A stretch of 64,000 nucleotides of DNA, from contig JADZEX010000068.1 in the NCBI GenBank assembly GCA_020850355.1, positions 1 through 64,000 of the forward strand. Direction: 5' to 3'. This document shows positions 60 to 26,203 of the stretch, piece after piece. Source of the DNA: Fimbriimonadaceae bacterium. GTDB taxonomy: Bacteria > Armatimonadota > UBA10988. How positions within the stretch are numbered: the stretch's first letter is position 1; each line of letters opens with the position of its first letter. Under the pieces are notes generated by a model that saw nothing but the letters and a program-made list of their open reading frames with translations, ran no database searches and was not told where the DNA came from. A program made the position numbers and the translations under genes.

Positions 60-1796
60 TCAGCGCACGCTGCTGGGGCCGTTGGTCGGCGCTTCGCGGA
101 TGATCCGCGGCGTCACGAAGATCAGCAGCTCGGATTCCCGAGTGGTCGTCGTGTTGCTGCGGAACAGCGCCCCGATGAACGGCAGGTCGCCGAGCAACGG
201 GATCTTCCGGCTGGAGACGCTGTTGTCCTTGCGCACCAGGCCGCCCATCGCGATGGTGTCGCCGTCCGGAACCCGCACCAGCGTCGAGATGGTCTGGTCG
301 GCGATGATCGGGATCTGGCCCTCCGGGCTGTCCACGAAGCCCGCCACGTCGCTGATGGTCGGACTGAGCACGACGGTGATCGACTCGTTCGGCGGCTGCC
401 CAGTGACGCGCGGCACGACGATCAGGTCGGTGATCACGTCGAACGTCTCGATGTAGGTCGAGGTCGTCGTGGCTGAGTCGGTGACAGTCGTATCGGACAG
501 GACGATCGGGATCTCCTGACTGAACGAAACCACCGCCGGCAAGCCGTTTTGCGTCAACACGCGCGGCGCGTTGACCACCTTGCCGTTGTTGTTGGCCATG
601 ATGGCGCTCAGGAAGACCTGGAAGTTGCCAGTGGCGTACTGGAACGCCACGCTGGCGCCGCCGCTCGACGAGGAGTCGCCGCTGATCGTGGCGCTGCCGT
701 TGGTCAAAGTCCAGTTGGCCCCGAAGGCCTTGCTGTCGTCGGCGCGGAGCGTCACGAAGCGGGACTCGACCTCGATCTGCTGCGGCGGCACATCGAGCAG
801 GGCGACGATGTCGCGCAACTCGTCGATGCCTTCCTGCGTGCCCTGCACAATCAGCGCCGAGAGCAGGTCGTAGCCGATCAGGACGTCGATGCCCTCGGGC
901 AACGGCAGCACGCCTTGCTGGCCACCGCCACCGCCGAGCCCGCCACCGCCGCCGCCGAGGCCACCACCGCCGCCACCGAGACCACCACCACCGCCGCCCG
1001 GCCCACCAGCGCCGCCACCACCCGGCGCGTCGCCGAACTGGTCGCGCGCCAGCAGCGGCTTGTAGTTGCGGATCGCCGGATCGGACTGGGTGCGCTTGCG
1101 CTGACCCAGCTTCAGCAGCTCGTCACTGCCGTTCAGGGTGTCCCCCAAGCGCACCACCGGCGTGCGGCTGACGTTGGCCTTGGGCAGGTACTGCCGCCGC
1201 TGGCCCGTCAGGGTCTCTTCCACTGCCGGGCACCCAAACAGCGCACAGAACGTGCTGGCCTGCGCGAAGTTGAGCTTCAACTTGGTGTAGACGCGAGCCC
1301 GGCCGGCGCCGGCGCCGGAGGACTCCTCGAGATGCGGCGCGCGCAGGTCGACGGTCGTGGCACCGGGCGGCGCGGCCGGCGGTTGGCGCGTCGGCACCAC
1401 CACCTGGACCCGCTCCGGCACCACGGCCGTGCCCCCACCGCCGCCAACCTGGAACACCTTGCCGCTGTCGGACTTGGCCGCCGCGCGTGAGATGGTGTAG
1501 ATCCCGGTGGTCGGGTTCAACTTGATGCTGAGGTCGTTGGCCTCAGCCAGCACGGCCAGGGCCACGTCCAAGGTCTTGTCGGTCAGTCGCAGGCTGACCT
1601 TCTCGTTGCGCAGGTCTTTGTGCACAACGATCGAGACCCCGGCCTCCTGACTGATGATGTCGGCCACCTCGGCGAGGGGCGCATCGGTGAAGTTGAGGTG
1701 CAGCAGATCGCCGCCCCGCTCTTGGGCCGATACGTTTCCCCAGCAGGCCAGACTGCCTAGCAGTCCGGCCAACAGCAAGCTCTTTGTGGCTCGCAC
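60..1796 (-). CDS. pilQ: PilQ-like secretin of a type IV pilus system
   Basis: Forms the outer-membrane channel through which a type IV pilus is extruded. The 578-residue product has a signal peptide (about 1-24), an STN/secretin N-terminal domain (about 30-100), a second short N-domain-like segment (about 168-190), a glycine-rich linker (about 254-295) and a C-terminal secretin domain (about 335-570). The C-terminal domain carries the family signature VPDGDTIAMGGLVRK followed by KIPLLGDLPFIG. The start is GTG at 1796, set by AGGAGG at 1805-1810 with an 8-nt spacer. It is the last gene of the pilM-N-O-P cluster and lies just downstream of a related STN protein. PilQ proteins are commonly around 700 residues; this one is short because it has few N-terminal modules. 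A GspD-type secretin is the alternative, but the pilMNOP context favours PilQ. Confidence 0.93.
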   Translation of the reverse strand: MRATKSLLLAGLLGSLACWGNVSAQERGGDLLHLNFTDAPLAEVADIISQEAGVSIVVHKDLRNEKVSLRLTDKTLDVALAVLAEANDLSIKLNPTTGIYTISRAAAKSDSGKVFQVGGGGGTAVVPERVQVVVPTRQPPAAPPGATTVDLRAPHLEESSGAGAGRARVYTKLKLNFAQASTFCALFGCPAVEETLTGQRRQYLPKANVSRTPVVRLGDTLNGSDELLKLGQRKRTQSDPAIRNYKPLLARDQFGDAPGGGGAGGPGGGGGGLGGGGGGLGGGGGGLGGGGGQQGVLPLPEGIDVLIGYDLLSALIVQGTQEGIDELRDIVALLDVPPQQIEVESRFVTLRADDSKAFGANWTLTNGSATISGDSSSSGGASVAFQYATGNFQVFLSAIMANNNGKVVNAPRVLTQNGLPAVVSFSQEIPIVLSDTTVTDSATTTSTYIETFDVITDLIVVPRVTGQPPNESITVVLSPTISDVAGFVDSPEGQIPIIADQTISTLVRVPDGDTIAMGGLVRKDNSVSSRKIPLLGDLPFIGALFRSNTTTTRESELLIFVTPRIIREAPTNGPSSVR

Positions 1797-1889
1797 GGTT
1801 TGTGCCTCCTTCTCCCCACTGCACCCGTCGCCGGGGCAACCCCGCCGTGCCTTCTGACAACCGGCCCCGGCGTTTGGTCCGTGATCCGC

Positions 1890-2738
1890 CTAGAAACCAC
1901 CGCCGCCGCGACTGCCGCCGCCGCCGAAGCCGCCACCGCCGCCACCGCGACTGCCGCCGCCGCCGAAGCCGCCACCGCCGCCACCGCGACCGCCGCCGCC
2001 ACGACCGCCACCGCCGCCGCCGAAGCCGCCGCCGCCGCCGCGACCGCCGCCACCGCCACCGAAGCCGCCACCGCCATTGCCGCCCAGGCCGCCACCACCG
2101 CCGCCGAGGCCGCCACCACCACCGCCAAAGCCGCCGCCGCCACGGCCACCGAGGGCGCTGGCGAAGCTGTCAATGTCGATGTAGTAGAGTGGCACGCCCT
2201 TGCGGAACATCGAGGCGAAGCCAGGCGCAAACATGAACTTGAGGTCGATCTTCTGGTAGCGCTTCGATTCGACGGTCGGCGTCCCCGCCGTCTCGGTCCC
2301 GCCCGCCGGAGCGGTCGTCGCTCCAGCGCCAGCCCCTGGCCGCGGCGGCGGGGCCACCGGGCGGGCCGGCTGGGTCGGACCGGTCGGAGTGGTCGGCCCG
2401 GTCGGCATCGTCGGGCGGGTCGGCGCGCCGCCGGCGCCACCCTTGATGATGTAGACCCCGTCGACGTTCTCGTAGCTCAGCCCGCCGGCGACCTGCAGCA
2501 GCAGCTTCAGAGCCTGTTCCGGCGTCTTGTTCTCAATCGAAATGGTGACCTTGGTGTCCTTGTTGACGTCGGGCCCGAAGATGAACTGCAGGGCGGCTTC
2601 CTTGCCGAGCAGCCCAATGGCCTCCGACAGGGGCGCGTCCTTCAAGTCCAGGTTGATGCCGTCCTGCTGCGCTGCGGCCGTGCCGACCCAGAGCAGTACG
2701 CCGACGAGCATGGTCCAGCTTGTCACTCGTACCCGCAT
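1890..2738 (-). CDS. STN-domain protein with a Gly-rich tail; looks like a partial PilQ paralogue
   Basis: A secreted protein of about 282 residues: signal peptide, STN domain (about 25-95), a Pro/Thr-rich linker, a short folded segment, then nearly 90 residues of almost pure glycine with Phe, Leu and Arg. No secretin domain is present. Both folded parts resemble the N-terminal half of the adjacent PilQ: DAPLSEA versus DAPLAEV, and a segment KIDLKFMFAPGFASMF versus KLKLNFAQASTFCALF. Two adjacent ATGs (2741 and 2738) are possible starts. AGGAG at 2746-2750 is spaced 7 nt from the second, so I chose 2738. It probably acts in the periplasm with PilQ, perhaps as a pilotin-like or gate-associated partner; that role is inference. 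No named family beyond STN was recognised. Confidence 0.8.
   Translation of the reverse strand: MRVRVTSWTMLVGVLLWVGTAAAQQDGINLDLKDAPLSEAIGLLGKEAALQFIFGPDVNKDTKVTISIENKTPEQALKLLLQVAGGLSYENVDGVYIIKGGAGGAPTRPTMPTGPTTPTGPTQPARPVAPPPRPGAGAGATTAPAGGTETAGTPTVESKRYQKIDLKFMFAPGFASMFRKGVPLYYIDIDSFASALGGRGGGGFGGGGGGLGGGGGGLGGNGGGGFGGGGGGRGGGGGFGGGGGGRGGGGRGGGGGGFGGGGSRGGGGGGFGGGGSRGGGGF
1893..2150 (-). repeat. Triplet-rich tandem repeats encoding a poly-Gly tail
   Basis: Near-continuous CCG/CCA triplets on the plus strand encode the glycine-rich tail of the STN protein. They include one perfect 39-bp tandem duplication (1909-1947 and 1948-1986) encoding an S-R-G-rich, F-containing unit. Such repeats are prone to slippage, so tail length may vary between strains. 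Confidence 0.85.
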
Positions 2739-2806
2739 CATCCATCTCCTCGGTTCGCCCGCCAACGCTGCGGCGATCCACCCCCGCCGGCCGCGCTGCT
2801 GCGCTC

Positions 2807-2836
2807 AGTATACCCGTTTCCAGCCCGACTCGTGCA
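2807..2836 (-). promoter_or_regulatory. Possible internal promoter for the STN protein and secretin
   Basis: On the minus strand a TATACT box (2807-2812, 5 of 6 matches to consensus) lies 18 nt from a weak TGCACG -35 box (2831-2836). It sits in the 127-nt gap between the pilP stop and the STN start and could boost expression of the last two genes. The -35 is poor, so this is tentative. Confidence 0.35.
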
Positions 2837-2865
2837 CCTTTCGGCCGGTCGCCCGCCGAATCGGC

Positions 2866-3582
2866 TTAGCCGCGCCGGAACGGCGCCAGGTAGACCCGCT
2901 TGGTGCGCTCGTTGCGCAATCGCACGCCCTCCGCCGAAATGGCCTCGACGGTCAGCGAATCCGCGCCTGGCGTGGAGATCGGCACCGTGTCGCCCGGCCG
3001 CACCAAGATCGTGCGGTCGCCCTGCTGCAAAATCGCCTTGACCGTCGACCCCCACACAAAGCCCGCGGTCCGGACATCGCTGAGCTGCGTGTCGGACGGC
3101 CCCTGCTGCTCGCGCTCCAACGACGGCGGGGCGACGGGCGCCCGGACCGGCAGGATATGCGCGATGTTGTAGGGTTGCGGCGGCGGCGGTGGCGGCACCG
3201 GCGACGGCTTATCGAGCGCCGCAAAGACGTTGTCCTTGCCCTTGAACCGCGGCTTCGGCCGCAGCGCGGTCGGCACCGCGCCAGCCGGGGCACCCGGCAT
3301 CGTGGGCGGCGCGGGCGCGGCCCCCGGAGCCGGGGCCCCAGGCATCGCCGGCATGCTGGGCGCGGCCGAGGGGGCTGCCGCGGGTCCACCGGGCGCACCG
3401 GGCGGACCGGGCGCACCGGGCTCGCCCGGCGCGCCGGGCGGCATCTCGGCCTGGGTTGTGCCCGCCTCGCCACCCGCCGCCGGCTCCTCGCTCTTGCCGC
3501 CGCAGCCGACCAGCAGCCAGTACGGGCTGATCGCCGCGGCCATCACGAGACCCACTTGCCAACTCTTCAGCCCGCGCATCAT
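2866..3582 (-). CDS. pilP: PilP-like inner-membrane lipoprotein with a collagen-like linker
   Basis: PilP is the inner-membrane lipoprotein that links the PilN/PilO complex to the PilQ secretin. The 238-residue product has a lipobox LVGC (Cys27), a long Ala/Pro/Gly linker (about 45-105) containing six consecutive G-X-Y triplets, a Pro run, and a C-terminal beta-rich domain (about 165-235; AGFVWGSTVKAILQQGDRT... RVYLAPFRR) of the PilP/GspC homology-region type. Its ATG at 3582 overlaps the pilO stop by 4 nt, indicating translational coupling. The assignment rests mainly on gene order and the C-terminal domain, since PilP sequences diverge strongly. Confidence 0.75.
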   Translation of the reverse strand: MMRGLKSWQVGLVMAAAISPYWLLVGCGGKSEEPAAGGEAGTTQAEMPPGAPGEPGAPGPPGAPGGPAAAPSAAPSMPAMPGAPAPGAAPAPPTMPGAPAGAVPTALRPKPRFKGKDNVFAALDKPSPVPPPPPPQPYNIAHILPVRAPVAPPSLEREQQGPSDTQLSDVRTAGFVWGSTVKAILQQGDRTILVRPGDTVPISTPGADSLTVEAISAEGVRLRNERTKRVYLAPFRRG

Positions 3583-4493
3583 TCGTCCCCTCCGCCGCCG
3601 CCGCCGCCGCCGCCGCCGCCATCACCGCCTTCCGGCGGCGCTTCGCCCCCGGCCGGTCCCGGCCCAGCGGCCGGCGCGGCCGGCGCGGGAGGTGGCGCGG
3701 GCGGCTGGGCGTTGTCCGGCCACACGAACAGCCGCAGGCTGGTGTTCAGCCGCATCAGCACGGTTCCGCGGTGGTCAAAGGCCTCGCGGGTCAGGTTGAA
3801 ATCGGTGATCTGCGCGATGCGGTCGTACTTCTCGGGAAACGTCTCGATGAACCGCAGCAACTCCGGCAGCAGTCCATAAACCGTCATCGTAACCGTGCCG
3901 CGCCCCAGCGGCCAGTCCAACCGACCCTCCGGACCGGGCGGCGGCAAGGTGCCCTTGGTCAAGTTGATCGGCGGCGCCGGCACGCTGGCGTCGAACTCGA
4001 AGAACAGGTTCGGATAGGTCTTGTGGACGAACCGGATCAGCCGCGGGCCGGCCTCGTCGCGCTGGCGGTAGAGCAGCTCGTACATGAAGTCGTCAGGCCG
4101 CTCGTAATTGAACTTGGCGCGGCTGATGCCCTTCATGTAGCGGTTGATCAACGCGTCCAGCGCCGCCTTGTGCTTCGCCAGTTCGACCTTCTTGGACGCC
4201 AGGTCGACCTCCCGCTGCCGCTTGGTCTGATCGAACGCGGCCTGATCCTGCTTGCGGTCGGCATCGCCGTCTTTGGCGCGCTGGCTGGCATTGGTCAGGT
4301 CCACGCCGTCCGCCGGCCAGTTGACCTGCGAGGTGGTCGAGCTGCTGTACTTCCCGCGACTCCCATCGCGCGCGGCGAGGTGCTTCGTCCACTCTTCGTT
4401 GATCTTCTTGATCGACGCGAAGTAGACCACCGTCGGAACGAGGATGCTGAGAAAGATCGACACCCCGTGGACTGCGATGCGTGCATTCGACAT
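3579..4493 (-). CDS. pilO: PilO-like type IV pilus alignment-complex protein
   Basis: PilO pairs with PilN in the inner membrane to align the pilus assembly machinery. The 304-residue product has one N-terminal membrane segment (about 8-26), a charged Lys/Gln-rich coiled-coil region (about 70-115), and a periplasmic ferredoxin-like domain (about 150-265) containing VYGLLPELLRFIETF, typical of PilO. It ends in a Pro/Ala/Gly tail with 11 consecutive glycines. Start ATG at 4493, with GGAGG about 9 nt upstream. It lies 30 nt after pilN and overlaps pilP by 4 nt. Confidence 0.85.
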   Translation of the reverse strand: MSNARIAVHGVSIFLSILVPTVVYFASIKKINEEWTKHLAARDGSRGKYSSSTTSQVNWPADGVDLTNASQRAKDGDADRKQDQAAFDQTKRQREVDLASKKVELAKHKAALDALINRYMKGISRAKFNYERPDDFMYELLYRQRDEAGPRLIRFVHKTYPNLFFEFDASVPAPPINLTKGTLPPPGPEGRLDWPLGRGTVTMTVYGLLPELLRFIETFPEKYDRIAQITDFNLTREAFDHRGTVLMRLNTSLRLFVWPDNAQPPAPPPAPAAPAAGPGPAGGEAPPEGGDGGGGGGGGGGGDE

Positions 4494-4523
4494 CGTAGCT
4501 TGCCTCCGCTCTCAGTCCTCGGA

Positions 4524-5603
4524 TCAGGCCGGCGGCGCGACGCCCGCGGAACCGGCGTCCGGCCCGGCCGGCGCGCCACCTCCGGGCGGCGGCGCCCCTG
4601 CAGCCTCAGCACCAGGCGGCATGCCCGGCATCGCACCACCACCGCCGCCGCCGCCCCCTCCGCCACCGCCGTCCGGGGCCGGGATGGGCGTTGCCCAGCG
4701 GGCCGAAACACTCATCAGCAGGTAGGGCTGCGGCCCCGGCTCGACCGACTCCTTGATGTACCGGGCGACCGCCGCGGCGCGCATCCGCCCACCGCCGCCA
4801 CCCCCGCCACCGCCCCCGGAGGCGCCTTCCACGCCGCCCGGCGGCGGCGCCGCACCGGCGCTGGGGGCCGACGGCCCGGACGCTCCTGCCGCGGAGGGTC
4901 CCGCCGAGGGTCCCGCCGAGGGCGCTGCCGGGGCACCCGCTGCTTCGGCACCGGGCGGCCCACCGCCACTGTCGCCACCGCCGCCCGCGGCCGCGCCGAC
5001 CGCGACGTTGGTGCTGCTGTTGACGGCGACCATCCCCGGCACGGCGTAGTTCAAATCCATGTGCGCCACGACGCCCGGCCCGAGTCCCAACGGGCTGGTC
5101 CGGTTCGGCCAGCCGGTCAGCCCGGTGACGTTGACGCTGTCTTGCGCAAACAGACCGCCCTCATAGCCGGCGCGCAGGTTCATCAGCATCCGAGCGACGT
5201 CCTCGGTGGTCTTGGTGCGCACCTGCAACTCAACCCCGGCCGTGGTCAGCCGACACGAGAGGACCTCGACGCGGTTGTAAATGAACGGCGCCAACGCCCG
5301 CATCCGCTCCGGCCAGACATCGCCGTAGTCGCGCAAGCCCTCGATGTAGGACTTCTTGTTGTCGACCGGCTGGATCTGCCCGACGACCGCGGCGATCTCG
5401 CCGTCGAGGGTACCGATCTGGCTCTCGAAGCCGGCCGCGACGGTCTTCTGGTTGTCCATGTTCTGCATCGCATTGCGGCAGGTCAGGAACCAGCCCAGGG
5501 TGCCCCCGATGTTGACCAGGAGCAGCACCACCCAGACCGCCAGGGCCTTCTTGACCCGGGCCGGCTCGAACACCTCACGTGGCAGGAGTTGCAGGCGGAG
5601 CAT
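4524..5603 (-). CDS. pilN: PilN-like type IV pilus assembly protein with long Gly/Ala/Pro tail
   Basis: PilN contacts cytoplasmic PilM through its N-terminus and PilO in the periplasm. The 359-residue product begins MLRLQLLPREVFEPARVKKA, a short cytoplasmic stretch typical of PilN. A membrane helix (about 20-42) and a periplasmic coiled coil and domain (about 45-200) follow. The C-terminal 150 residues are unusual: Ala/Pro/Ser/Gly low complexity with two poly-Gly runs, interrupted by a short ordered segment around MRAAAVARYIKESVEPGPQP. PilN is normally about 180-220 residues, so the extra length is all tail. Gap to pilM is 12 nt, with an AAGGAT ribosome-binding site. Confidence 0.85.
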   Translation of the reverse strand: MLRLQLLPREVFEPARVKKALAVWVVLLLVNIGGTLGWFLTCRNAMQNMDNQKTVAAGFESQIGTLDGEIAAVVGQIQPVDNKKSYIEGLRDYGDVWPERMRALAPFIYNRVEVLSCRLTTAGVELQVRTKTTEDVARMLMNLRAGYEGGLFAQDSVNVTGLTGWPNRTSPLGLGPGVVAHMDLNYAVPGMVAVNSSTNVAVGAAAGGGGDSGGGPPGAEAAGAPAAPSAGPSAGPSAAGASGPSAPSAGAAPPPGGVEGASGGGGGGGGGGRMRAAAVARYIKESVEPGPQPYLLMSVSARWATPIPAPDGGGGGGGGGGGGAMPGMPPGAEAAGAPPPGGGAPAGPDAGSAGVAPPA

Positions 5604-5615
5604 GGCGGATCCTTA

Positions 5616-7397
5616 CTACTTCTCCCACATCGCCAGCCCGACCGCCACCGCCATCACCGGCGCGGCAGCCCGCAGGCGTTCGTCGGTCAATCGGCTGTTG
5701 CTGACCACCAGGTGCTTCAGCGGATCGCCCAGTTCGACTTCGATGTCGCGGCCGAGCTCCTGTTCCAGGAACTCCGCAAGGCCTTCCAGCCGCGCCGTGC
5801 CGCCGACGATCACGACGGCGTCGATCATCGCGCCATCGTAGCGACTGCTGTAGTATTCCAGGCTGCGGGCGATCTCACCGGCGATGTCGCGGACCACCGG
5901 CTCGACGACCTGGCGCACCTGCTGCGCCTCATCGGCTTCGGCGTCCACCTGGACGGCAGCCACCTCGGAGGTCAGCCCGAGATCGGTGAACGAGAAGCCC
6001 CCGGTGCCTTCCTGGGTCGCCTCGCCGAGCTCACCGAGATCGAAGTCGAGCCCCTCGTCGCTGGTGCCGAGGTCGCCCAGATCGAAGCTCGACCCGACGT
6101 CGGTGGCCCCACCGTGGTCCGAGGCCGCGCCCGCCGTGGAGGTCGCCGTGGCGTCGTCGTCGCCGAGACTGAAATCGAAGCCGGCATCGTCGGCCGCCTC
6201 TTCGGCTGGCTCCTCGGCCTCGGCGAAGCCGAAGGAGAACGCCGGGTCGCCGTCAGCGGTCTCCTCCCCAGGCGCCGCAGCGGCGGGCGGCTGCTCCGCG
6301 GCCGGTTTGGCGGGCGGTTCGTCCTCGTCAAAACCGAACGAGAAGGGCTGCTCGGCGGGCACCGGCGGGTCCTTCTCATCATCGGCCGCGGCGAGGCTGA
6401 ACTTGAAGGTCGGCGGCTCGTCGCCGTCGTCTTCCAACTCGAGCCGCGGCTTGTCGTCGTCGTCGTCGTCGGTGTGGACCTCGACGGTGGCGGTGTCTTC
6501 GAAGGCAAAGCCGCCAAAGCCGGCCCCGCTGCCGCCGAAACCGGTGTCGCTCTCCTCGCCCGCGTCGGTCGAGAAGGCGGCGGCGCCGAACCCGAAGTCG
6601 GTGTCGGCCGCCGGCTTCTCGTCCTCGACGGCCGCCGCTGGCGCGACGACGGTGCCGGGCGGGAGCGGCTTGACCGAGGCAACTTCCCGCTTCAGCCGTT
6701 CGGCTTCCTTCTCGCTGACCCCCAGGCCCTCGGAGATCCGCTGCGTGATCGTCCGCCCGCCCGGCGTGATGGTCCGCGGGAAGTGCAACTGCCCATCGCG
6801 CACGATGCACAGTTCGGTCGCGGTGGCGCCGATGTTGACCACCGCCACGGTGCCCCGCTGGCGGCGTTCGTCCTGGCAGGCCACGCTGCGCGCCAGGGCC
6901 AACGGCTGCACGTCGACCGCCACCGGCTTCAACCTGGCGCGCACCATCGCCTGCGCCAGATCGCTGACGGTCTCGTGCAGCACGGCCCCGAAGAGCACGT
7001 CCATGTTCGGCGAGTCGAGCCCCAGGTCGGGCCGCTCGACGACGGCGTAGTCGTAGATGGTGTCGCGGATCGCGAACGGCGTGTTGCGCTCGATGATCCC
7101 CTCAACCTCGGCGGCGAGTTCCTTCGCCGTCAGCCGCGGGTGCTCGACGATCCGGACGACGGTCGACTTGGTGCCTTGGACCGCGCAGATGGCCTTCTTG
7201 GCCTTCAGCTTGTGGGTCCGCACCGTCTCGCGGATGGCGGCCGCCACCGCGTCGGGATCCCGCACATCGCCATCGCTGACGGCGCCTTCAGGGGTCGGGG
7301 TGACCGCCAAGCCCAGCAGCTTATAGCCCCCCCGCGCCCGCGCCATCTCGGCGATCTTGATGGTGTCCGAGCCGATGTCGATGCCCAGAACTGCCAT
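5616..7397 (-). CDS. pilM: PilM, actin-like ATPase of the pilus alignment complex, with a large acidic insertion
   Basis: PilM is a cytoplasmic FtsA/actin-fold protein that binds the PilN N-terminus. The N-terminal half (1-240) has the phosphate-1 loop GIDIGSDTIKIAEM, then NTPFAIRDTIYDYAVV and the VVNIGATATEL phosphate-2 region. The C-terminal part (about 488-593) has the adenosine motif AVVIVGGTARLEGLAEFL. Between them, residues about 245-488 form an Asp/Glu/Ala/Gly-rich linker with repeated F-x-F and FDLGDL motifs, absent from typical 350-residue PilM. I start at ATG 7397 (MAVLGIDIG), the conserved family N-terminus; a GGAGG lies 12 nt upstream, slightly far. An in-frame extension to 7427 lacks family similarity. 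It is the first gene of the operon, 46 nt from the -10 box at 7443-7448. Confidence 0.93.
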   Translation of the reverse strand: MAVLGIDIGSDTIKIAEMARARGGYKLLGLAVTPTPEGAVSDGDVRDPDAVAAAIRETVRTHKLKAKKAICAVQGTKSTVVRIVEHPRLTAKELAAEVEGIIERNTPFAIRDTIYDYAVVERPDLGLDSPNMDVLFGAVLHETVSDLAQAMVRARLKPVAVDVQPLALARSVACQDERRQRGTVAVVNIGATATELCIVRDGQLHFPRTITPGGRTITQRISEGLGVSEKEAERLKREVASVKPLPPGTVVAPAAAVEDEKPAADTDFGFGAAAFSTDAGEESDTGFGGSGAGFGGFAFEDTATVEVHTDDDDDDKPRLELEDDGDEPPTFKFSLAAADDEKDPPVPAEQPFSFGFDEDEPPAKPAAEQPPAAAAPGEETADGDPAFSFGFAEAEEPAEEAADDAGFDFSLGDDDATATSTAGAASDHGGATDVGSSFDLGDLGTSDEGLDFDLGELGEATQEGTGGFSFTDLGLTSEVAAVQVDAEADEAQQVRQVVEPVVRDIAGEIARSLEYYSSRYDGAMIDAVVIVGGTARLEGLAEFLEQELGRDIEVELGDPLKHLVVSNSRLTDERLRAAAPVMAVAVGLAMWEK

Positions 7398-7615: not shown

Positions 7616-10600
7616 TCACGGGGTGCTGTCGACTGCATTGAAGTCGGGCAGAAAGGCCCCGTAGAAGACGTTGCTGCCGGACGCGCCCGGCACCGGGCCG
7701 GTGGCGGTCTGCCGGTAGAGCGTGCGGGTCGAGACCCAGGACAGCCAGAAGCGGGTCGACATGATCGGGGCCACCGTGGCGCCGTCCTTGTAGCCGACGT
7801 AGAAGTGCTCCGCCGCGACCGCCGGCTGGGACTCGTTGCTGGCGCCGTCCAGCGGCACCAGCCGCTCCGGTCCGAGTCCCGGCACCACGGCAGCTTCCTC
7901 GATCGGATTGGTGCTCCCGGCAACGCCGCTGTCGTACCATAGCCGCACCCGGCGACCGAGGTCGCTGAAGCCGAAGTGGACCATCGCCGCGGCGTTCCAG
8001 CCGGCGTAGGCCCCCGGCGAGCCACTGCTGCTGGTGCTGCCGGCGATGTTGGCCAGCGTGAAGCCCTGCGCCGTGGCGCCGGTGGTGTAGCTGGAGTAGG
8101 GCCCCGTCCCGCGCAGCGTCGCGCCGGCCGCGTTGGTGAAGCTCCAGGCCCCCAGGGCGGCATCGGCGGCGTTTGCTGCCGCGCCGTTGAAGGCGTTGTC
8201 GCCCCGGGTGTCGTCGTCGTTGACGACCGCCCGCAGGGACGCCACCGGCGCCCGCTGCAACGGCACGGCGAGGCTGAAGGTGCGGTACCAGAGCTGGCCC
8301 TTGCCGCCCTCGACGGTGCGCTTCCAGACCAGGCACATCCGCTCCCACCAGTCGAAGGCGGCGGTCGGCTCCCGGTCGACGGCCGCGTCGGTGGTGATCC
8401 GCCAGGCGGCCGGCCGGTAGGTCGCGTAGACGTAGACCGGCACGGTCGAGCCGCGGCGATAGAGCGGTCGCGGGAAGGTGACTCGGCCGAGTCCCGGGTG
8501 GACCCGCACGATGTCGATCCCGAGGGCTCGCAAGAGCGCCCCGCCGCCGACGTTGCGCAGCGGCAGCACCCATTCGCCCTCGCCGGCGTCGTAGCGCGCA
8601 CTCTCCAGGTCGAAGTCGACTCGCGCCGCCTGGGTCGCCGCCTGGGTCGCCGTGAGCGGCCCGCGGGCGAGTTCGGCCGCGGTCGGCACCGCGCCGGCCT
8701 GTGGCGCCCGCCAGACCCGCAGCACCAGCAACGGGTCGAGGTCGGCGTTGACCGTCCCGCCGCCCAGCGCCGCCAGGCGGTCCTCGTCGAACAGCGGTCG
8801 CGCACTGTCGGCAAAGCCCCGGTGCGCGGCGCGGTCGAGCCGCCAGCCGCCGGCGCCGTCGGGCTCGCTGATCCGGAACTGCTCGGCGGGCATCACCCAG
8901 TCCAGCCCGCTGGCGGCATAGGTGGTGTGATTGGCGTTGCTGGTCAGCAGCTCGTTGGTGTTGCGCGGGAAGGGCACCCGCCCACCCGGCAGCGACCGCA
9001 CGTAGAAGGCCGGCCCGCCGGTCGTCGGATGCGCCGCCAGCGTGCTCAGCCGGTAGCCGTCATCGCCCATCGGCGAGTAGCGCAGTTGCCCGGCCGGCGT
9101 GTTCAGCGGCGCGGCCCCGGCGGCTTCCAACGGCAGGTAGCGCGACCAGTAGACGTCCTGGTTCTGCCACAGCGGCGACCACGCGCTGTAGAGCACGTTG
9201 ATGGCTTCCAGGCCACCGGCCAGGGTGTTCACGGCGTTCCGCCGCGACGGCAGCAGGAACGGCTCCATCACATTGCTGAGCCCGTCGGGCGTGCGCAGCG
9301 CGTAGTTCACGAAGCGGTTCGGCAACTGCGCGATGGCGTCGGTGTACCCGCCCGCCGCGCCGACGCTGTCGGGCATCGTGATGGCGTTGAACCCGAGGCG
9401 GCTGCTGCCGCCCTCGCCCGACTGCCAGCCGACCCACAGCACCTTGGTGCCGGTGGTGTCATCGACAAAGGCGCGCGGGACCTGTTTGTTGACCAGCGCG
9501 GCGCCGCTGCCGTCGTCAGGAATCTGCAGCGTCGCGGTGCTGCCGATGCCATTCGTGACGTCACCGCGGCGGAACTGCAGGAAGCTGGCCCGGCGGCCGT
9601 TGACTTCCTGCTCGCTGTGCCACAGCAACACGAACTGCCGAGCCCCGCTGCCGCTGTCGGGCACGGCGCAGATGTTGGGATACAGATTCCGCTGCGCTCC
9701 CTCGTTGGCCGACAGCAGGGTCTCGCCGGGCGGCATGAACAAGAAGGCGCGGTAGTTGGTCTGCAGCGTGTTCCCGAACTGCGGCCGACCGCCGTCCTTG
9801 AAGAAGACGCCCCAGTTGTTGCCGGCGGTGGTCCCGCCCATCGCCCGCAGGCTGGACCAGCCGAACCAGATCTGGTCGCCGGCGTTCGGCGCGGCCGGCG
9901 GGCTGCTCGGGGTGAACTCCGCCGGGTCCTGCACCACCACCACGGTCGGCGTGGCGTGCGGCGCGTCGGGGTTGCTGAACAGCGGGTTGAAGTTGGGCAC
10001 CGGCTGATAGGTCCCAGGATGCCCCGCGCGGTTCGGATCGTAGGGCGACAGATCCCCCGCCAGGCGGTCGCTGCGGCGGTTGATCTCGTTGTCCCAGAAG
10101 TCCTCGATCCGCCACAGCGGGCTCTCCGAGACGGTCAGCTTCATGGTCACGGAGCCGCCCAGCGCGGTCTCTTCGGCCGAGTTCGGCTGGTTGTCGTTGT
10201 CGGTCCCAATCGCGGGGGTGTCGCCGCCCGGCAGGCCCAGATCGTCGACGAAGGCCCGCAACCGCCCGGTGTAGCTGCCGAGCGGCTGCCCGACCGGAAT
10301 CCGGCGGTCGTCAAGCAGGTTGCCGGTGGTGTCGAGGCGGCCCAGCCGCAGGTAGACGTCCCCCGCCCGGCGCCCCTCGGGCGCCCCGACCGCAGGCGCG
10401 GCGATGCTGCCGATGCCGGTCCCATCGTAACTCTCGGTGGTGCCGTCCTGGCTCATCACGGCGTAGTCCTGCGCGAACCAGGCCGGGACTGGCTGCATCT
10501 GCGCCAGCCGCGCCGCCGAGGCGCGGTCGTCGGCCTGGACCGGCGTGAGGCCCATTTCGAGGAACAGCTTGACCGCCCGCAGCGGCACGTTGCCTTCGTT

Positions 10601-13600
10601 GATCAGCGTCACCGGCACCCATTGCGAGATGCTGCCGTGGATCACGCGGCCGAAGTCGACCAGCTTCTCGACGATCCGCAACCGCCGCTCGTAGGCCACC
10701 GAGAACTCGAAGTCGAAACCGCTGTAGGGCTCCAGGGCGACATGCTGCGGCGCGCCGGTCTGCAGCCGCGCCTGCCGCAGGCCGGTGACGGTCTGCGGTG
10801 AGACCCAGCCGGTGTCCTCCTCGTACCAGGCCACGAACTGGCTGGTCGCCGGCTGCGCCTCCTCGCCGGCGACCGGGGTCCCGGCGGCCCGGTAGGCGAG
10901 CTGGTACAGATTGGAGTCGCGCCGGCGGCCCTGCAGGCTGCTGGCGGGGTACTGCGCATCGACGTCGTCGTCGGCGTCGTAGAGCCCCCGCGCCGGGGCG
11001 CTGTCGTCGACATACACCGCGGCGCTGCCGCGGTAGCGGTCCCAGCCGCTGGCGTCGGCCGGATCCGGCGAGCGGACCTGGCTGACGGTGCTGTAGCTGG
11101 CCGGCGCGCCGCCGGTGTCGACGCGCAACTGGCGTTCGATGGCGTCGTTGCTGGGCGGCTGGAAGGCCGGCACGTTGATCTGCAGCGCAGTCTGCGTGAA
11201 CGGCGTGCCGGTCTCGATCAGACGGTCCGGAATCGGATCCACACTGACCGCTGCGGCGGGGACCGGTTGGGGCGTGATCCCCGGATCCCGCGGCAGCCCG
11301 CCGGTGGTCGGGTAGTAGCGCGGCCCGGTCCCGACGGCGGCCCGGACGTCACCACTGCAGAGCATCTTCAGTTCGTACAGCGCCAGGTCGGCCCCGCTGG
11401 TGTTGCGGGCCCGCAGCCCCAGGATCCCGGCCGCGTCGTCGCCCTGCAACTGCACCGAGGCCGAGTTCGGGGTGTCGATCTGCAGCGTCGAGCCGCTCAG
11501 CGCGGTCCAGGCGAGCCGCGCCGCGGCACCGCTGCCGGTCAGGGCCAGCTTCTCGATGGTCCAGCCGCCGGAGCTGAAGGCGTACAGCTCCAGCCGGTCG
11601 ACGCGACTGGGCTGGTCGAAGGCCTTCCCCACGCTGTAGCCGGCGACGACGTTGTAGGGGCTGGTGCCGGCGGCGATGTTGCCGTCGAAGCAGGTCGCCA
11701 CGTCGGCTTGCGCCGGGCTGTCGGCCGGGCGCACCCCGCGGGTGGCATGATTCGCCGCGACGCCGCCGCTGACCAGGGACTGTCCCAGGTCGTAGCAGTA
11801 GAGCAGCACGCTGGCCCGCGTCTGGGCCGCCGCCGCGCGGACCGCCGCCTCGTCGATGTCATAGGCCAGGTAGCGCGGGATGTCGCCGTCGGTGGTGCCC
11901 GGCGACTGGTCATGACTGAGGTCGCCGACCCCCCGCAACGGGTACCCGCCGCCCGCGACGTAGCCGCTGGCCGCGTCGGTGATGTTGGCTGCCGCGGTCC
12001 AGGCATGCACGCTCCCGCCGGGCTGCCAGTCGAGCACGCTGCGCAGCCAGACCGGGTGGCTCTCACTGCGGGCCCCCGGTCGCACCGGGTAGAAGTAGTC
12101 CTGCCCCGGTCCAGCAGCCGGGTTGGCCTCGTCGGCGGTCAGGATGTCGGCCCGGTAGCCGAGCAGGAAGTTCGCCCGTTCCCATTCTCGCAAGGCCGGC
12201 GTGATGAGGCTGACGGTCCGCAACTGCGGGTAGTAGCGCCCACTACCCGGGTCGTAGGCCGCCAGGGTCTGCAGGTCGGTGACCCCCGCGGTCTTGTCGG
12301 CGCGCTGCTCCTCGGGCACCGCCCGCACCGGGGCGACCACGAAACGGCAGATGATCGGGCCGCCCTGATAGTCCCGCGGCGAGGTGTAATCCCGGTCGAT
12401 CAGCCGCGGGCTGTAGGGCCAGCCACTGTAGCGGCGGATCCGCCAGCGCGGCGCCTTGCCCGCGGTCGGGTGGACCTCGGTGTCGTCGACCACCTCCTCG
12501 GTGCGGGTCAGCGAGAGCGGGTCGCGGACGTACTGCCGGCTGCCGCCCCCCTGGTTGTCGACGTCGGCGGTCTGGTAGGTCAGGTGGTCGTGTCCCAGCG
12601 TGAAGGGCCCGCCCGCGCCGGTCAGGTCGGTCAGGTCGGTGTCGCTGGGATCGCCGTTGCTCCAGCGGCGATTCGGCTCCTCGGCCCGCACGCAGGTCTC
12701 GTATTCGAACTGCAGCTCGACCAGGCCGATCCCCGGCGTCAGCACCTGGCCGTCGCCGTTGAGCTGGATCGTCAGGTCCATCGGAGTGGCCAGCAACTGG
12801 AAGTCGGCCCCCGGCAACGGCGCCGCGGCGGAGTCGCCGAGCAGCAGGTTCGGGTCCATCCCGGTGGCCAGCGGAGCGCGCGACGGACCGCTGGTGTTGA
12901 TGCCCTGCACCCACCAGTTGTTGTTGCTCTCGCTGAGCGCGCTTTCGAGCACCGGCCCGTCGTCGGGCGTGCCGACGATGCTGTCCGGCCCGCGGTCGTC
13001 GAGGGCGTGGATCAGGAACTCCAGCGGCCGGTTGGCGGCACTCAGCGCGCGGTCGCCGTCGGCCAGCGGGTCCTGTGTGAAGCTGCTGTGCTCCCCCGGC
13101 TGCTGGTCGGTGGCGTGCCCCGCCCCGGGGTCGGCCAGGGCGCTGGGCAGGCGGTCGTTGGTGGTCACGTCCGGCCCGGCGGCGTCGGCGTCGAGCTGGC
13201 GGTTCTCCCAGAACGAGGCTGCGTCGAAGAACGCCGCCTGGTCAGCCCCGCTGCGCAGCGCGTCGTAGTCGGCCTGCGTCGGGCGCTTGCCGGCGGCGTC
13301 GTAGACACTGCCCACCTCGCAGCGCGTGACGTAGTCCAAGGGGTCCTGGAGCAGCCGCGGGATCGGCAGCAGGCCGAAGTCCTGGTCGGCCTGGGTACGG
13401 CAGTCGGCCGGGTCGCCGGTGATGTAGATCTCGCGGATCCACTCGTCCCACTGCCGCCAGCGGAACTTCATGTTGCCCCAGAAGTTGGCCACTTCCTGGT
13501 CGGTGAAGTTGGCCACCGCGGCCGGCTGCTGGGCATTGGTCGGGGAGTCTGGGGCGATCTCCCCGACGGCTTCGCCGTAGAACAGCGACGGCGCTGGCGG

Positions 13601-14170
13601 GGCGCCCTTGCCGCGGGGCAGGTGGACCAGCACCCGCCAGCGACCGGTCGCGACGGCATCCTCGCTGTGGCGGTAGCCATCGTCCGGGTCCCCGGGCAGC
13701 AGGCCCATCCGCATCATGTGGTTGACGACCTTCTGACAGGCCCCGCGGGTCGGCAGCTTGAAGATCCGGAGGTGCAGCAGGACCTGGTCGTCGGCGGTGC
13801 CGTACTGGCCGTCGGTCCCGGGATGCACCGTGATCGGCTGCTGCGGGAAGCGTTCCTCGGCCGTCATCATGCGGCTCAGCACGGTGTAGCTGAGACCGGC
13901 CGCGTTGAGCCCCGAGGGCGGGTTGGTCAACCCGCTGGCCGGCTCGCCCTGCATCGGGCCGGCGATGAAGGACTCATACCCCAGTTCGCGGACCGCGCGC
14001 GCGCTGAGGCTGACGGTCCCGACGTTGTACGGCGCGTTGGCCGTCGCGTCGGGCAGCGCCCGGTAGGTGCTCAAGATGGCCGGCGTCTCGAGCGCGTTCG
14101 GCGGTACGTCGGCCGCCAGCGGCAACGCCGCGGCCAGTAGCGCCAGGGCCCAGTGCATTCGCTTGATCAT
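7616..14170 (-). CDS. Giant secreted protein 2 of the minor-pilin operon, unknown function
   Basis: A 2,184-residue exported protein. ATG at 14170 begins a clean signal peptide (MIKRMHWALALLAAALPLAAD); the frame extends upstream to 14356 but only through non-conserved Arg/Pro-rich sequence overlapping the previous gene. No family was recognised over most of its length. A segment near residue 1170 (VDFGRVIHGSISQWVPVTL, then INEGNVPL) looks like an ASH/choice-of-anchor-D type Ig strand pair, and a stretch near residue 840-960 is weakly discoidin-like. It is rich in Thr, Asp, Gly and Trp, typical of large surface proteins. It is the last gene after the pilins, 25 nt downstream of another giant secreted protein, so it is probably exported or displayed with the pilus. 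That role is inference. Confidence 0.85.
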   Translation of the reverse strand: MIKRMHWALALLAAALPLAADVPPNALETPAILSTYRALPDATANAPYNVGTVSLSARAVRELGYESFIAGPMQGEPASGLTNPPSGLNAAGLSYTVLSRMMTAEERFPQQPITVHPGTDGQYGTADDQVLLHLRIFKLPTRGACQKVVNHMMRMGLLPGDPDDGYRHSEDAVATGRWRVLVHLPRGKGAPPAPSLFYGEAVGEIAPDSPTNAQQPAAVANFTDQEVANFWGNMKFRWRQWDEWIREIYITGDPADCRTQADQDFGLLPIPRLLQDPLDYVTRCEVGSVYDAAGKRPTQADYDALRSGADQAAFFDAASFWENRQLDADAAGPDVTTNDRLPSALADPGAGHATDQQPGEHSSFTQDPLADGDRALSAANRPLEFLIHALDDRGPDSIVGTPDDGPVLESALSESNNNWWVQGINTSGPSRAPLATGMDPNLLLGDSAAAPLPGADFQLLATPMDLTIQLNGDGQVLTPGIGLVELQFEYETCVRAEEPNRRWSNGDPSDTDLTDLTGAGGPFTLGHDHLTYQTADVDNQGGGSRQYVRDPLSLTRTEEVVDDTEVHPTAGKAPRWRIRRYSGWPYSPRLIDRDYTSPRDYQGGPIICRFVVAPVRAVPEEQRADKTAGVTDLQTLAAYDPGSGRYYPQLRTVSLITPALREWERANFLLGYRADILTADEANPAAGPGQDYFYPVRPGARSESHPVWLRSVLDWQPGGSVHAWTAAANITDAASGYVAGGGYPLRGVGDLSHDQSPGTTDGDIPRYLAYDIDEAAVRAAAAQTRASVLLYCYDLGQSLVSGGVAANHATRGVRPADSPAQADVATCFDGNIAAGTSPYNVVAGYSVGKAFDQPSRVDRLELYAFSSGGWTIEKLALTGSGAAARLAWTALSGSTLQIDTPNSASVQLQGDDAAGILGLRARNTSGADLALYELKMLCSGDVRAAVGTGPRYYPTTGGLPRDPGITPQPVPAAAVSVDPIPDRLIETGTPFTQTALQINVPAFQPPSNDAIERQLRVDTGGAPASYSTVSQVRSPDPADASGWDRYRGSAAVYVDDSAPARGLYDADDDVDAQYPASSLQGRRRDSNLYQLAYRAAGTPVAGEEAQPATSQFVAWYEEDTGWVSPQTVTGLRQARLQTGAPQHVALEPYSGFDFEFSVAYERRLRIVEKLVDFGRVIHGSISQWVPVTLINEGNVPLRAVKLFLEMGLTPVQADDRASAARLAQMQPVPAWFAQDYAVMSQDGTTESYDGTGIGSIAAPAVGAPEGRRAGDVYLRLGRLDTTGNLLDDRRIPVGQPLGSYTGRLRAFVDDLGLPGGDTPAIGTDNDNQPNSAEETALGGSVTMKLTVSESPLWRIEDFWDNEINRRSDRLAGDLSPYDPNRAGHPGTYQPVPNFNPLFSNPDAPHATPTVVVVQDPAEFTPSSPPAAPNAGDQIWFGWSSLRAMGGTTAGNNWGVFFKDGGRPQFGNTLQTNYRAFLFMPPGETLLSANEGAQRNLYPNICAVPDSGSGARQFVLLWHSEQEVNGRRASFLQFRRGDVTNGIGSTATLQIPDDGSGAALVNKQVPRAFVDDTTGTKVLWVGWQSGEGGSSRLGFNAITMPDSVGAAGGYTDAIAQLPNRFVNYALRTPDGLSNVMEPFLLPSRRNAVNTLAGGLEAINVLYSAWSPLWQNQDVYWSRYLPLEAAGAAPLNTPAGQLRYSPMGDDGYRLSTLAAHPTTGGPAFYVRSLPGGRVPFPRNTNELLTSNANHTTYAASGLDWVMPAEQFRISEPDGAGGWRLDRAAHRGFADSARPLFDEDRLAALGGGTVNADLDPLLVLRVWRAPQAGAVPTAAELARGPLTATQAATQAARVDFDLESARYDAGEGEWVLPLRNVGGGALLRALGIDIVRVHPGLGRVTFPRPLYRRGSTVPVYVYATYRPAAWRITTDAAVDREPTAAFDWWERMCLVWKRTVEGGKGQLWYRTFSLAVPLQRAPVASLRAVVNDDDTRGDNAFNGAAANAADAALGAWSFTNAAGATLRGTGPYSSYTTGATAQGFTLANIAGSTSSSGSPGAYAGWNAAAMVHFGFSDLGRRVRLWYDSGVAGSTNPIEEAAVVPGLGPERLVPLDGASNESQPAVAAEHFYVGYKDGATVAPIMSTRFWLSWVSTRTLYRQTATGPVPGASGSNVFYGAFLPDFNAVDSTP

Positions 14171-14195
14171 GGCTACGCTCCCCAGGTCCGGCCTA

Positions 14196-17100
14196 CTATT
14201 GGTGGACGAAGACGGGCGACGAAGCAGGATAGCTGCCCGTCTCGGGCCGCCGTCGGGTGGCGGCCTGACCAGCCGGATAGGTGCTGGTGGTGCTGAGGTC
14301 CGGCAAGACATACTCGACCCGCCGGTTGGTCGGATCGTTCGGATCGAAGCGGACAATCAGGATTTCCGAGGCCGAGCCGGTCTGATTGACGCTGTTCGGC
14401 GCGCCGTTGACGATGGCCAGCAGATTCTGGTTCGGCAGCTTGCTGACCGCGACCGGGTTCCAGGCTTTGCGGCCGTTGGCGTACCACTGCTGGTAGCGCG
14501 TCGCGTAGGCGATCCCGCGGCGCTGATAGTAGCTGTCGTTGGCGGCGTTGTCGTAGACCATGTCGCGGTAGTCGTTGCGGCCGAAGGTCCACAGCGCGGT
14601 CAGCCCGCCGGCGGTGCGCTGGCTGATCTGCACTTCGCTCTCGCCACTCGACCCGGCCGCGGCGGCGATCACCGCCAGGCAGGGCGTCTCACCGACGCGG
14701 AAGCGCCGGAAGAAGCGCAGGCCGCGGAAGGTCTGCCCGCCGGACCAGTTGTCGGCGAGGTTGGCGAGGTTGGTCTGCACGCCGTCGATCACCCCGTTGT
14801 TGTCGTCGTCGAAGTCGCCGTCGTTGTCCGGGTCGGGATCGATCAGCAGCAACTGGTCGGTGCCCTCGGCGCGCACCACGAGGTACCAGTCGCGGGGATC
14901 GTTGGCGGCGTCGTAGAGGCCGTCGAAGTCGGTGCTGGTCGGGTCCCAGACCTGTAGTTGGGCGTACGGCAGTTGCAGCCACTGGCCGCTGACCGGGCTG
15001 AAGACGCTCGGCGCGGTCAGCTCCCACGGTGCGCCGAACCCGGTCTGGGTGCGGCTCAGCGGCTCGTAGTAGGTGTACGTCCCGGACTGCACGTTGCCGT
15101 TGTCGTAGAACCGCGGCCCGGCGGGATAGGTGACCGCCATGACGATCCGCTTGTGGCCGGTGTCGGCGATGATGGTGGCGTCCTTGGTGACGACATCCTG
15201 CGGGTCGCCGACCGCGCCGTCGCCGTCGACGTCGTACAGCGAGAGCGGGTGGACGACCTGGTTGAAGCGCAGCCGCGCGGCGTCCTGCGGGCGGTTCAAC
15301 CCCAGGTCCCGCAACCCGAGGTAGCGCAAGACCCCGTCGGGGTAGCCCGTGCGGCTGTCCCAGGGCCACAGCACCAGGCCGGCCTTGTCCGTTTCGACGA
15401 CCCGGTTGTTGCCGGTATCGACCAGCAGCACCCGCTCGCCCGGCAGGTTGTAGGCCTTCGACGGGCGGCTCAGCCCGACCGTCGTGAGGTCGGTCGGCTG
15501 CGGGCTGTTGGTGATCAGGTCGGCCTGCCGCAGCGCGCCGATCTTCTCCTTGGTGCCGGTGTACTGCGTGATCACCCGCCCCTCGTAGTCCATCTTGGCG
15601 ACTCGCTGGCCTTCGGTGACCAGCAGCTCGCTGGCGCCGAGGGCGAACAGCGGAGCGATCAGGCTGTTGTTGTCGGCGCCACTGCCGGTGCCGTCGCCCT
15701 GGACCCCGCAGGCGATGAAGGCGGCGCCGTCCAGCACCAGCGGAATCCCGCGGACGAAACTGGCGGCCACCCCGGCGTTGAAGTTGGTCCAGCCGGGCAC
15801 GCTGTCGGGCCGCAGGTACTGCATGTTGACGACATGGTCGTCGGCGCCGTAGCTGAAGGCGTAGACCCCACCGTTCATTGGCGATGCGTTGCGGGTGCCG
15901 CCGTACAGTTGGTGGCGCCAGTCTACCGAAGCATCGGCGTCTCGAAGATCCAACGGGATCGCGAGCGCCCGTTGTGTGCCCAGTTCGGTACCGGCCAGGA
16001 AGACCGTCGCGCCCGCCACCACCGGCGAGAACCCGAAGGCCGGCGCCGGGCGGTGGAAGCGGTGGTTCTCGCTGTGCGAGATCCCGTCGACGGTGTTGTA
16101 GGTGACGGTCACATCCACATATTCGGCGTCTGGCCAAGCCCGCAAGAACAGCAGTGGGCGATCGGCGTCGAGGGTGTAGTCGGTCCCCAGCGCCAGCGCG
16201 GTGGTCGACCCGCGCAGCGTCACGGCGACGCTGGCCGGCACGATCCAGCGGCGGGCGTCCAAAAGCACAGTACCGTAGAGCGCCATCCACTTCAGCGGCG
16301 CCGGCACGTAGACCTCGGCGACCGGGTCGTTGGCGGCCAGGTAGGCGCCGTCGCCGTCGTTGTCCTGGACCAGCCAGAGGCGCCGCCCGTAGAGCGGCAG
16401 GCGCAACGCCTCGGGGTAGGGCTGCGCCGCCGCGGCGTCGGAGACCGGCTGCGCCAGCCGGGTCAGGTGCGCCTCGGGACCGTCGAGCTGCAACTGCCCG
16501 GCGGCGTGGTCGACGCTGTACTGCCGCCCATCCACGACGTAGGCCCGCAGGTTGGCGGTGGTCAGACCGCTGACCGCGGCGAGGCTGTTGTTCGGCGCCG
16601 CGAAGGCGGCCGGGTCGCGGGTCAGCAGGTAGGACCGCCGCTGGCTGTTGAGGCTCCCGGCCGAGAGCGTCAGCGGCGTTGTCAGCAACGGGTTCGGGTC
16701 GACGGCGAAGACCGCCCCGTAGGCCCGGTCGCGGGTCGTTGCGCCATGCACCGCGGCGGCCGCCACGACGGCGGTGCCGAGCTTCACCGGCGCGCCACAG
16801 AAGCTCGCCACGGTGCGCGCGACCGGGTTCGGCGGCAGGCTGTTGAGCGCATTGAGGCTGCCCGGCAGGACCACCGCCGGGTCGAACACCCAGCGCACGC
16901 CCTGGAAGTCGTTGGAGTTCGGCTCGGTCGGGTCCTGGCTGTCGGAGCCGGCCCGGAAGAAGGTCACGGTGCCACTGGCGCGCACCTCGTAGGGGCTGCC
17001 GACGGCGCCGGCGGCTGGCACCCCGCCCTCATAGTCGGCGGCCGGCTGGCTGAGACCGCGCCACAGCGCGGTGGAGGTCGCCACGACGGTGTCGGGATCC

Positions 17101-20036: not shown

Positions 20037-20050
20037 CGTCGTCACCTCTC

Positions 20051-23005: not shown

Positions 23006-23074
23006 GGCCTTCTGCCACCTTCGCCAGACAGCGGATCTTTACCCGCGGGCGCCCGGCCCCACACGCGTCTGAGG

Positions 23075-25198: not shown

Positions 25199-25207
25199 GG
25201 CTTCCTC

Positions 25208-26203
25208 CTAGGGCGCCGTCGGCCGCAGCACGGCGCGTGCGTCGGCGGCGTCGGCCGGCCCGCGGACGATCTCGATGTGACCATCTTCGTAGAGCACCAC
25301 ATCGCAGCCCCATTCGCCGTAGGTTTCGAAGGAGCGGCGTTCGTCGATCCGGAACAGCGAGGACCAGGTCACCACGGTGTCGCTGGCCGGCAGGTAACGC
25401 GGCGAGTCGTCGTCGGTCCAGCGGTGGCTGAGTTGCCGGTGGTAGTACAACGGCTGCGCGCTATCGCCGGCCGGGAAGCTGTTGGTGCCGCTCCCGCCGA
25501 CTGCCTGGGTGGCCCGCACCGGCCGGTACTTCCACTCCCGGGTGTAGGGGTCCTGCATCATCCAAGAGCACCAGTTCTCGTAGTTTTCCTCGGCGTACCC
25601 GTTGAAGGTCCCAAAGCCGCTCCCCACGGCCGGCGTGACGTGCGCCGCGGGGCGCGCCAGGAGCGTGTAGGTGAGGTACTCCTCGCGCGGTGTCAGCTCG
25701 CGCCCGACTGGGCTGATGGCCGGCTCGCCGAGCGCGCTGGCGTAGGCGTTGAAGGCCGTGCCCATCGACAGCGGGTCGTTCGGCACGACCTCGTAGCGAC
25801 CGCCCGCGCCGTCGTCGACCCACGGGTCGTTGCCGCCGTAGTTGCCCCCACCGGCGCCTTGGCCGATGAACGGCGGGCGGTTGGCGTCGGTCAACATGCG
25901 GTAGTTCGGCAGGTAGTCGAGGTAGTACAGCGCCCACAGCCCCGGCCCGCTGGGATCGGCGTTGCCGTCGCCGTCGTAGTCCGCAGCGGTCGGGTTGTAG
26001 GGCGGCACATCGCCCCAATCGTCGCGGTACAGCCGCAGTGCCAGACTGACCGCCTTGAGGCGCGCGACGGTCTCGGTGCGGCTGTTGCGCACCTCGAGGT
26101 TCTTGAGGCTGCGGACGGTGATCGCCAGCACCAGGCTGAGCATCACGATCACCACCAGCATTTCGATCAGAGTGAAAGCCGCTGTGGCCCTGCGGGTGTT
26201 CAT
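25208..26203 (-). CDS. FimT/GspH-like prepilin-type protein
   Basis: A 331-residue minor pilin with leader MNTRRATA followed by FTLIEMLVVIVMLSLVLAI and Glu at +5. The C-terminal end (CDVVLYEDGHIEIVRGP) resembles the final beta strands of GspH/FimT or GspG-type pseudopilins. ATG at 26203 overlaps the stop of the PilV-like gene by 4 nt (ATGA), so translation is probably coupled. It likely belongs to the initiating minor-pilin complex together with its neighbours. Confidence 0.85.
   Translation of the reverse strand: MNTRRATAAFTLIEMLVVIVMLSLVLAITVRSLKNLEVRNSRTETVARLKAVSLALRLYRDDWGDVPPYNPTAADYDGDGNADPSGPGLWALYYLDYLPNYRMLTDANRPPFIGQGAGGGNYGGNDPWVDDGAGGRYEVVPNDPLSMGTAFNAYASALGEPAISPVGRELTPREEYLTYTLLARPAAHVTPAVGSGFGTFNGYAEENYENWCSWMMQDPYTREWKYRPVRATQAVGGSGTNSFPAGDSAQPLYYHRQLSHRWTDDDSPRYLPASDTVVTWSSLFRIDERRSFETYGEWGCDVVLYEDGHIEIVRGPADAADARAVLRPTAP

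Follow-up and report, generated by a model that had tools for sequence, protein, structure and literature searches.

The window, as we call the whole stretch of 64,000 nucleotides analysed here, carries a type IV pilus locus on its minus strand, recognised as such because genes for PilN-, PilO- and PilP-like proteins and secretin genes follow pilM, and a pair of giant genes, one PilX-like gene and three prepilin-like ones precede it. The pilM gene itself (5616..7397; this and all features below lie on the minus strand) encodes 593 amino acids from an ATG start at 7397, or 603 from an alternative GTG start. It is followed by a pilN-like gene (4524..5603), whose product has the N-terminus MLRLQLLP, a transmembrane helix and a Gly/Pro-rich tail. 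BLAST also connects it with the genes that follow pilM at 16 other loci of Armatimonadota; the N-terminus resembles the PilM-binding peptide of PilN and may be compatible with that role. Then come a pilO-like gene (3579..4493), named from its position and the single N-terminal transmembrane-like segment of its product, and a pilP-like gene (2866..3582), named from its position and its product's lipoprotein-like N-terminus and Gly/Pro-rich linker; the pilN-, pilO- and pilP-like products had no match in the family libraries. The secretin N-domain and channel are two separate genes, one for a secretin-type N-domain (STN) protein (1890..2765; PF07660) and one for a PilQ-like secretin (60..1796; PF00263 with E = 6.9e-41; TIGR02515 at 178 bits, short of the 284 required). 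Throughout 60-5603 the PilN-, PilO- and PilP-like proteins and both secretin genes have Gly/Pro-rich low-complexity stretches, including long poly-Gly.

Directly upstream of pilM lies a gene (7616-14356) for a protein of 2246 amino acids with no Pfam or NCBIfam match, relatives of which precede pilM in 12 of the 17 other Armatimonadota loci; it is possibly a secreted pilus-associated protein. The region 14196-28116 holds a gene for a protein of 1949 amino acids with a weak DUF4159 match, then the PilX-like gene and the three prepilin-like genes, which have N-methylation motifs.

PilM and its acidic linker

By every test made the 593-residue protein is PilM. It is matched by Pfam PilM_2 (PF11104; E = 2.9e-53, 181.4 bits against a cut-off of 27) and by the NCBIfam pilM family (TIGR01175; 183.8 bits against a cut-off of 133); scores for FtsA (TIGR01174; 73.2 against 175.85 bits) and for the Amuc_1101 family (NF045709; 116 against 650 bits) fall below the respective cut-offs. 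The AlphaFold model has the PilM-type actin-like fold and subdomain arrangement, with a core pLDDT of about 95, and its ten best PDB matches by Foldseek are all PilM (Thermus, Pseudomonas, Myxococcus). Gene order, together with PF00263 for the secretin, places it with pilN, pilO, pilP and a secretin gene.

The Pfam and NCBIfam matches fall into two pieces, amino acids 2-238 and about 490-590, with none between; positions 1-236 of the PilM_2 profile correspond to amino acids 5-238, and positions 245-337 match at the C-terminus only. Both parts of the core are modelled at the same high confidence. The N-terminal part, amino acids 1-241 (6675..7397; Pfam 1-236), we take from the PilM/FtsA fold to comprise subdomains 1A and 1C, the first part of 2A and the start of 2B, and the C-terminal part, amino acids 483-593 (5619..5951; TIGR01175 profile 250-345), holds the rest of 2B, with its long helix 483-519, and 2A.

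Between them lies an acidic linker of 241 residues (amino acids 242-482; 5952..6674), with 62 D/E, 7 K/R and 21 F, a net charge of -55 and no NCBIfam match within it. The preliminary description of this DNA had noted a PilM of 593 residues with some 240 extra, acidic residues, and both points are borne out. It had placed the insertion at 5934-6665 (amino acids 245-488), separating the two halves of the actin-like fold. The insertion is real and does split the actin-like core, but the helices of the AlphaFold model set its boundaries as given above, and since it sits between helix 229-238 and helix 483-519, an interval that we take from the known PilM/FtsA domain order to be a surface loop inside subdomain 2B, it cannot be said to lie between the halves of the fold.

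All the Phe motifs named at that stage are present in the linker: FGFG (amino acids 268-271; 6585..6596), FKFSL (331-335; 6393..6407), FSFGF twice (352-356; 6330..6344 and 387-391; 6225..6239), FDFSL (407-411; 6165..6179), FDLGDL (438-443; 6069..6086), DFDLGEL (451-457; 6027..6047) and FSFTDL (468-473; 5979..5996). Example linker peptides are SSFDLGDLGTSDEG and EQPFSFGFDEDE, and the stretch GATDVGSSFDLGDLG, in which FDLGDL is extended to the left, is conserved in L006, a relative of the same family. The pattern F.[FL] occurs 13 times in the window linker against 2.7 expected from shuffles of the same residues, and none of 5000 shuffles reaches 13.

The linker is predicted to be disordered. AlphaFold2, run with 45 related sequences, gives it a pLDDT of 35-50 over most of amino acids 260-470 and almost no secondary structure, such low confidence being a proxy for disorder in a single-chain model whose alignment is shallow in the linker; with a second species modelled likewise, the linker is unstructured in both, which leads us to reject the ordinary folded domain that would have undone the earlier suggestion of disorder. 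The charge-hydropathy boundary places the window linker, and 67 of the 96 linkers, among disordered sequences, but 0 of 96 cores. Disorder, together with motifs that exceed chance and are kept better than their spacers (see below), is what is found in a disordered region with short linear motifs.

Distribution of the linker among PilM proteins

PilM was matched in all 61 genomes of relatives and in 196 of the 201 genomes sampled from Armatimonadota, the phylum to which the window genome belongs. Because E-values and alignments of a low-complexity linker are unreliable, we set its boundaries from the flanking core profiles and took its length as the gap between them, the same measure serving for 102 distinct Armatimonadota PilMs and 61 PilMs of other phyla; boundaries may be off by a few residues. 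The 102 leave out the window genome's distant PilM-like copies (L002 and L004) and a divergent Capsulimonas copy with 15 amino acids at the site (L060). A linker of at least 50 amino acids lies at the same core position in 96 of the 102 (median 115.5, range 21-400) and in 0 of the 61 (median 8, maximum 34), a comparison sample drawn from the phyla that a scan of the genome collection, and genomes centred on its hits, reached, Eremiobacterota and Cyanobacteria not being among them. The insertion is accordingly present in close relatives, and neither an assembly artefact nor an oddity of one genome accounts for it. In one relative of the same family (L007; G001:C18:75141-77237) the PilM frame is broken by a TAG within the linker, which is either a sequencing error or real.

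The six short Armatimonadota linkers are one of 47 amino acids (L198) and five of 21-22 in two genera of family f30; the five look like secondary losses, since their PilMs nest inside the linker-bearing tree. Second-copy PilMs of the same Armatimonadota genomes (n = 20) have 12-34 amino acids at the site, and the linker therefore belongs to one PilM paralogue.

Elsewhere, PilM frames in the Bacillota sample (149 genomes; the phylum of L068) are mostly 320-445 amino acids long and matched in one piece, and long PilMs of Planctomycetota (59 genomes; the phylum of L093, Kuenenia) are mostly extended outside the core. Two Planctomycetota PilMs (L233, L234) have an acidic Gly/Glu/Phe-rich loop of 83-88 amino acids at the same site, with ETEGF/DETGF motifs, and one further PilM from the 59 genomes has 65 amino acids there. 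The loops of L233 and L234 are probably of parallel origin, and their position indicates that the site is permissive.

Enrichment, conservation and selection of the motifs

It had been suggested that the FxF/FDLGDL pattern be sought in related PilMs, and motifs of this kind are enriched there: across the 96 linkers FD[LF] occurs 148 times against 8.6 expected from composition-preserving shuffles, a 17-fold excess, and F.[FL] occurs 248 times against 83. Since F[FL] and F..[FL] are rarer than expected in the same linkers, the i,i+2 spacing is specific. The profile around Phe reads (N/D/P)-F-D-L-(G/S)-D-E-E. Among 43 pairs of related linkers, for which percentages are descriptive because the pairs are not independent, Phe is the best-kept residue (83%) and hydrophobic motif positions are kept at 81% against 55% at other positions; Phe and the motif positions are also more conserved than the acidic residues. 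Net charge is negative in 96 of 96 linkers, with a mean of -0.17 per residue. The dN/dS of the linker exceeds that of the core but is mostly far below 1, lying at 0.03-0.20 in all unsaturated close pairs except one (L122/L126, 0.51, with few changes). Judged from these sequence comparisons, the motifs are genuine features held under constraint and the spacers drift, which is more than low complexity.

The motifs take different forms that follow the tree: FDL and FSFG in the window's family and many others, NPF in f14, MPFDF in f9 and parts of f25, SVFE with T(H/Q)(L/V)(E/D) in f11, f21 and f27, and T-x-(D/E)-G-P-x-F in f18, f35 and f39. None of the counted motifs occurs in f5, f16 and parts of f25, and in many clades there are just 0-2 FDL motifs in a linker of 60-120 amino acids. 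Since both type and number of motifs differ between clades, there is no single universal linker motif. Nine linkers without FDL (L018, L170, L173, L178, L180, L184, L187, L188 and L194) keep S-[VI]-F-E and A-T-[HQ]-[LV]-[ED]; the Thr motif of this clade could, as a guess, be a phosphorylation or FHA-type site. Outside PilM, no FDL clusters were seen in the other armatimonad proteins of the sampled loci and the window, and a scan of the window genome with a DNA pattern for two FD[LF] and its open reading frames, which covers closely spaced pairs, gave no other convincing case.

Interpretation and comparison with known systems

PilM lies on the cytoplasmic side of the inner-membrane platform, and in several species it is a binding partner of the motor ATPase. 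From the position, predicted disorder, motif enrichment, conservation, purifying selection and restriction to one paralogue described above, we infer binding, its multivalency and the kind of partner, and we lean, by a slight balance of probability, towards the linker being a tethered multivalent docking strap for cytosolic partners of the pilus machine. On this view it is a long disordered outgrowth of subdomain 2B in the principal type IV pilus PilM of nearly all Armatimonadota, in which each short aromatic motif, with the core F-D-[L/F]-[G/S]-D/E and clade-specific variants such as FSFG, NPFA and MPFDFS, could act as a weak binding site, and the acidic residues would keep the hydrophobic motifs exposed and soluble. 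Several motifs per chain, multiplied over a PilM ring, might enrich one or more cytosolic partners locally, beneath the inner-membrane platform, and a long acidic chain starting from 2B could extend as far as the motor or soluble regulators and retain them through its weak aromatic motifs. The likeliest partners would be the motor ATPases (PilB/PilT paralogues) or proteins that regulate them, since of all platform parts PilM is the one known to touch the motor: Thermus PilM pulls down the PilF motor, and PilMN raises PilF ATPase activity about two-fold (PMC6325625). A more specific proposal, which we regard as doubtful, is that the Phe-motif array makes PilM a phylum-specific hub that captures and exchanges motor ATPases or their regulators; if true, this way of docking would be new among the type IV filaments described.

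The 25 Armatimonadota genomes searched with the PilT family profile have 3-14 matches each, with PilB-type motors among the weaker ones, and there are tandem pilT copies (for example G000:C30:38177-41511). Loss of PilT-family motors alongside linker loss in f30 was considered and rejected; the two genera without the linker still keep these motors, so a pilus machine can exist in its absence. Together with the differing motif types of the clades, this speaks against a motor-docking role that is universal. Additional MshEN domains on the motor, of the kind known from Thermus PilF, were likewise rejected, the window genome having one per motor. A conserved extra cytosolic gene beside pilM was sought as a receptor and none was found, the recurring neighbours being the giant upstream gene and the PilN/O/P/Q-like genes.

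The main rival to docking is an acidic entropic spacer, a charged brush in which length and negative charge matter and the motifs have no specific receptor, and which would keep PilM subunits or the ring apart and away from nucleic acids and the membrane. The constant negative charge of all 96 linkers despite their wide variation in sequence and length speaks for it, as does the AlphaFold prediction, in which no docking on the PilM core appears; it leaves unexplained the 17-fold FD[LF] excess, the i,i+2 register and the conservation of Phe and motif positions above that of the acidic residues, and we think it unlikely. Quite improbable, in our estimate, is self-docking, in which the motifs would bind PilM itself, at the groove that receives the N-terminus of PilN or on an adjacent subunit of the ring, and control assembly or the nucleotide state: like the PilN-type peptide (MLRLQLLP in this locus), the motifs are short and hydrophobic, but the linker has no confident placement in either AlphaFold model (pLDDT 35-50; single chain, shallow alignment).

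The preliminary description had further proposed that the linker could drive condensation or clustering, its multivalent Phe stickers gathering pilus machines at a pole. The layout is indeed one of stickers and spacers (13 F.[FL] in 241 amino acids), but a net charge of -55 over that length should disfavour homotypic condensation, and the many clades with 0-2 FDL motifs per linker offer few stickers; polar clustering is unsupported, the strong and uniform negative charge argues against simple self-condensation, and we consider the proposal very improbable. Least credible is neutral expansion, the filling of a permissive surface loop by functionless GC-rich low-complexity repeats, which would fit the Gly/Pro-rich stretches of the neighbouring PilN-, PilO-, PilP-like and secretin genes, the growth of the same site in a few Planctomycetota and the loss in two f30 genera, but which the selection tests largely refute (in most pairs a dN/dS well under 1, Phe as the best-kept residue, motifs in excess) and which fits poorly with a charge of constant sign and with near-universality in the phylum alongside absence from the paralogue in the same genomes.

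PilM being a conserved component at the core of type IV pili, docking by the linker would bear on how motors are chosen and held at the ring, and it is directly testable, since the second PilM paralogue of the same genomes and the two genera without the array are natural controls.

The protein itself is a known one; what is new is that a core pilus protein contains a disordered array of motifs, kept under selection and spread phylum-wide. The claim that no such PilM insertion had been described holds for the open-licence literature searched, in which queries on PilM with Armatimonadota or disorder returned no account of one. PilMs of type IVa pili (Thermus 2ych, Pseudomonas 5eou, Myxococcus 3jc8) share its actin-like core and family, with a Foldseek TM-score of 0.89 to 2ych by target length, and window pilM is likewise followed by PilN/O/P-like genes and a secretin; the corresponding loop, however, is a few residues in 3jc8 and about 14 in 2ych, against 241 disordered residues here. 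Amuc_1101, the only long PilM-like NCBIfam family with a score, below its cut-off, for window PilM, is also a long PilM-like protein of a pilus complex (608 positions), but its C-core (249-347 of 608) directly follows the N-core and its extra length is C-terminal, whereas that of window PilM lies between the core parts, and we reject identity with it. The Planctomycetota loops of L233 and L234 are acidic and occupy the same site, but they are shorter, carry ETEGF/DETGF rather than FDL and are few among the matches from 59 genomes. Eukaryotic FxFG nucleoporin repeats and acidic activation domains also place aromatic stickers in a disordered chain for weak multivalent binding; the likeness is one of analogy and not of homology, the linker being bacterial, set inside an actin-like protein and putative in its binding. 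The linker also adds, for bacteria, a clear example of a disordered region that is long and drifts fast while selection preserves its short motifs.
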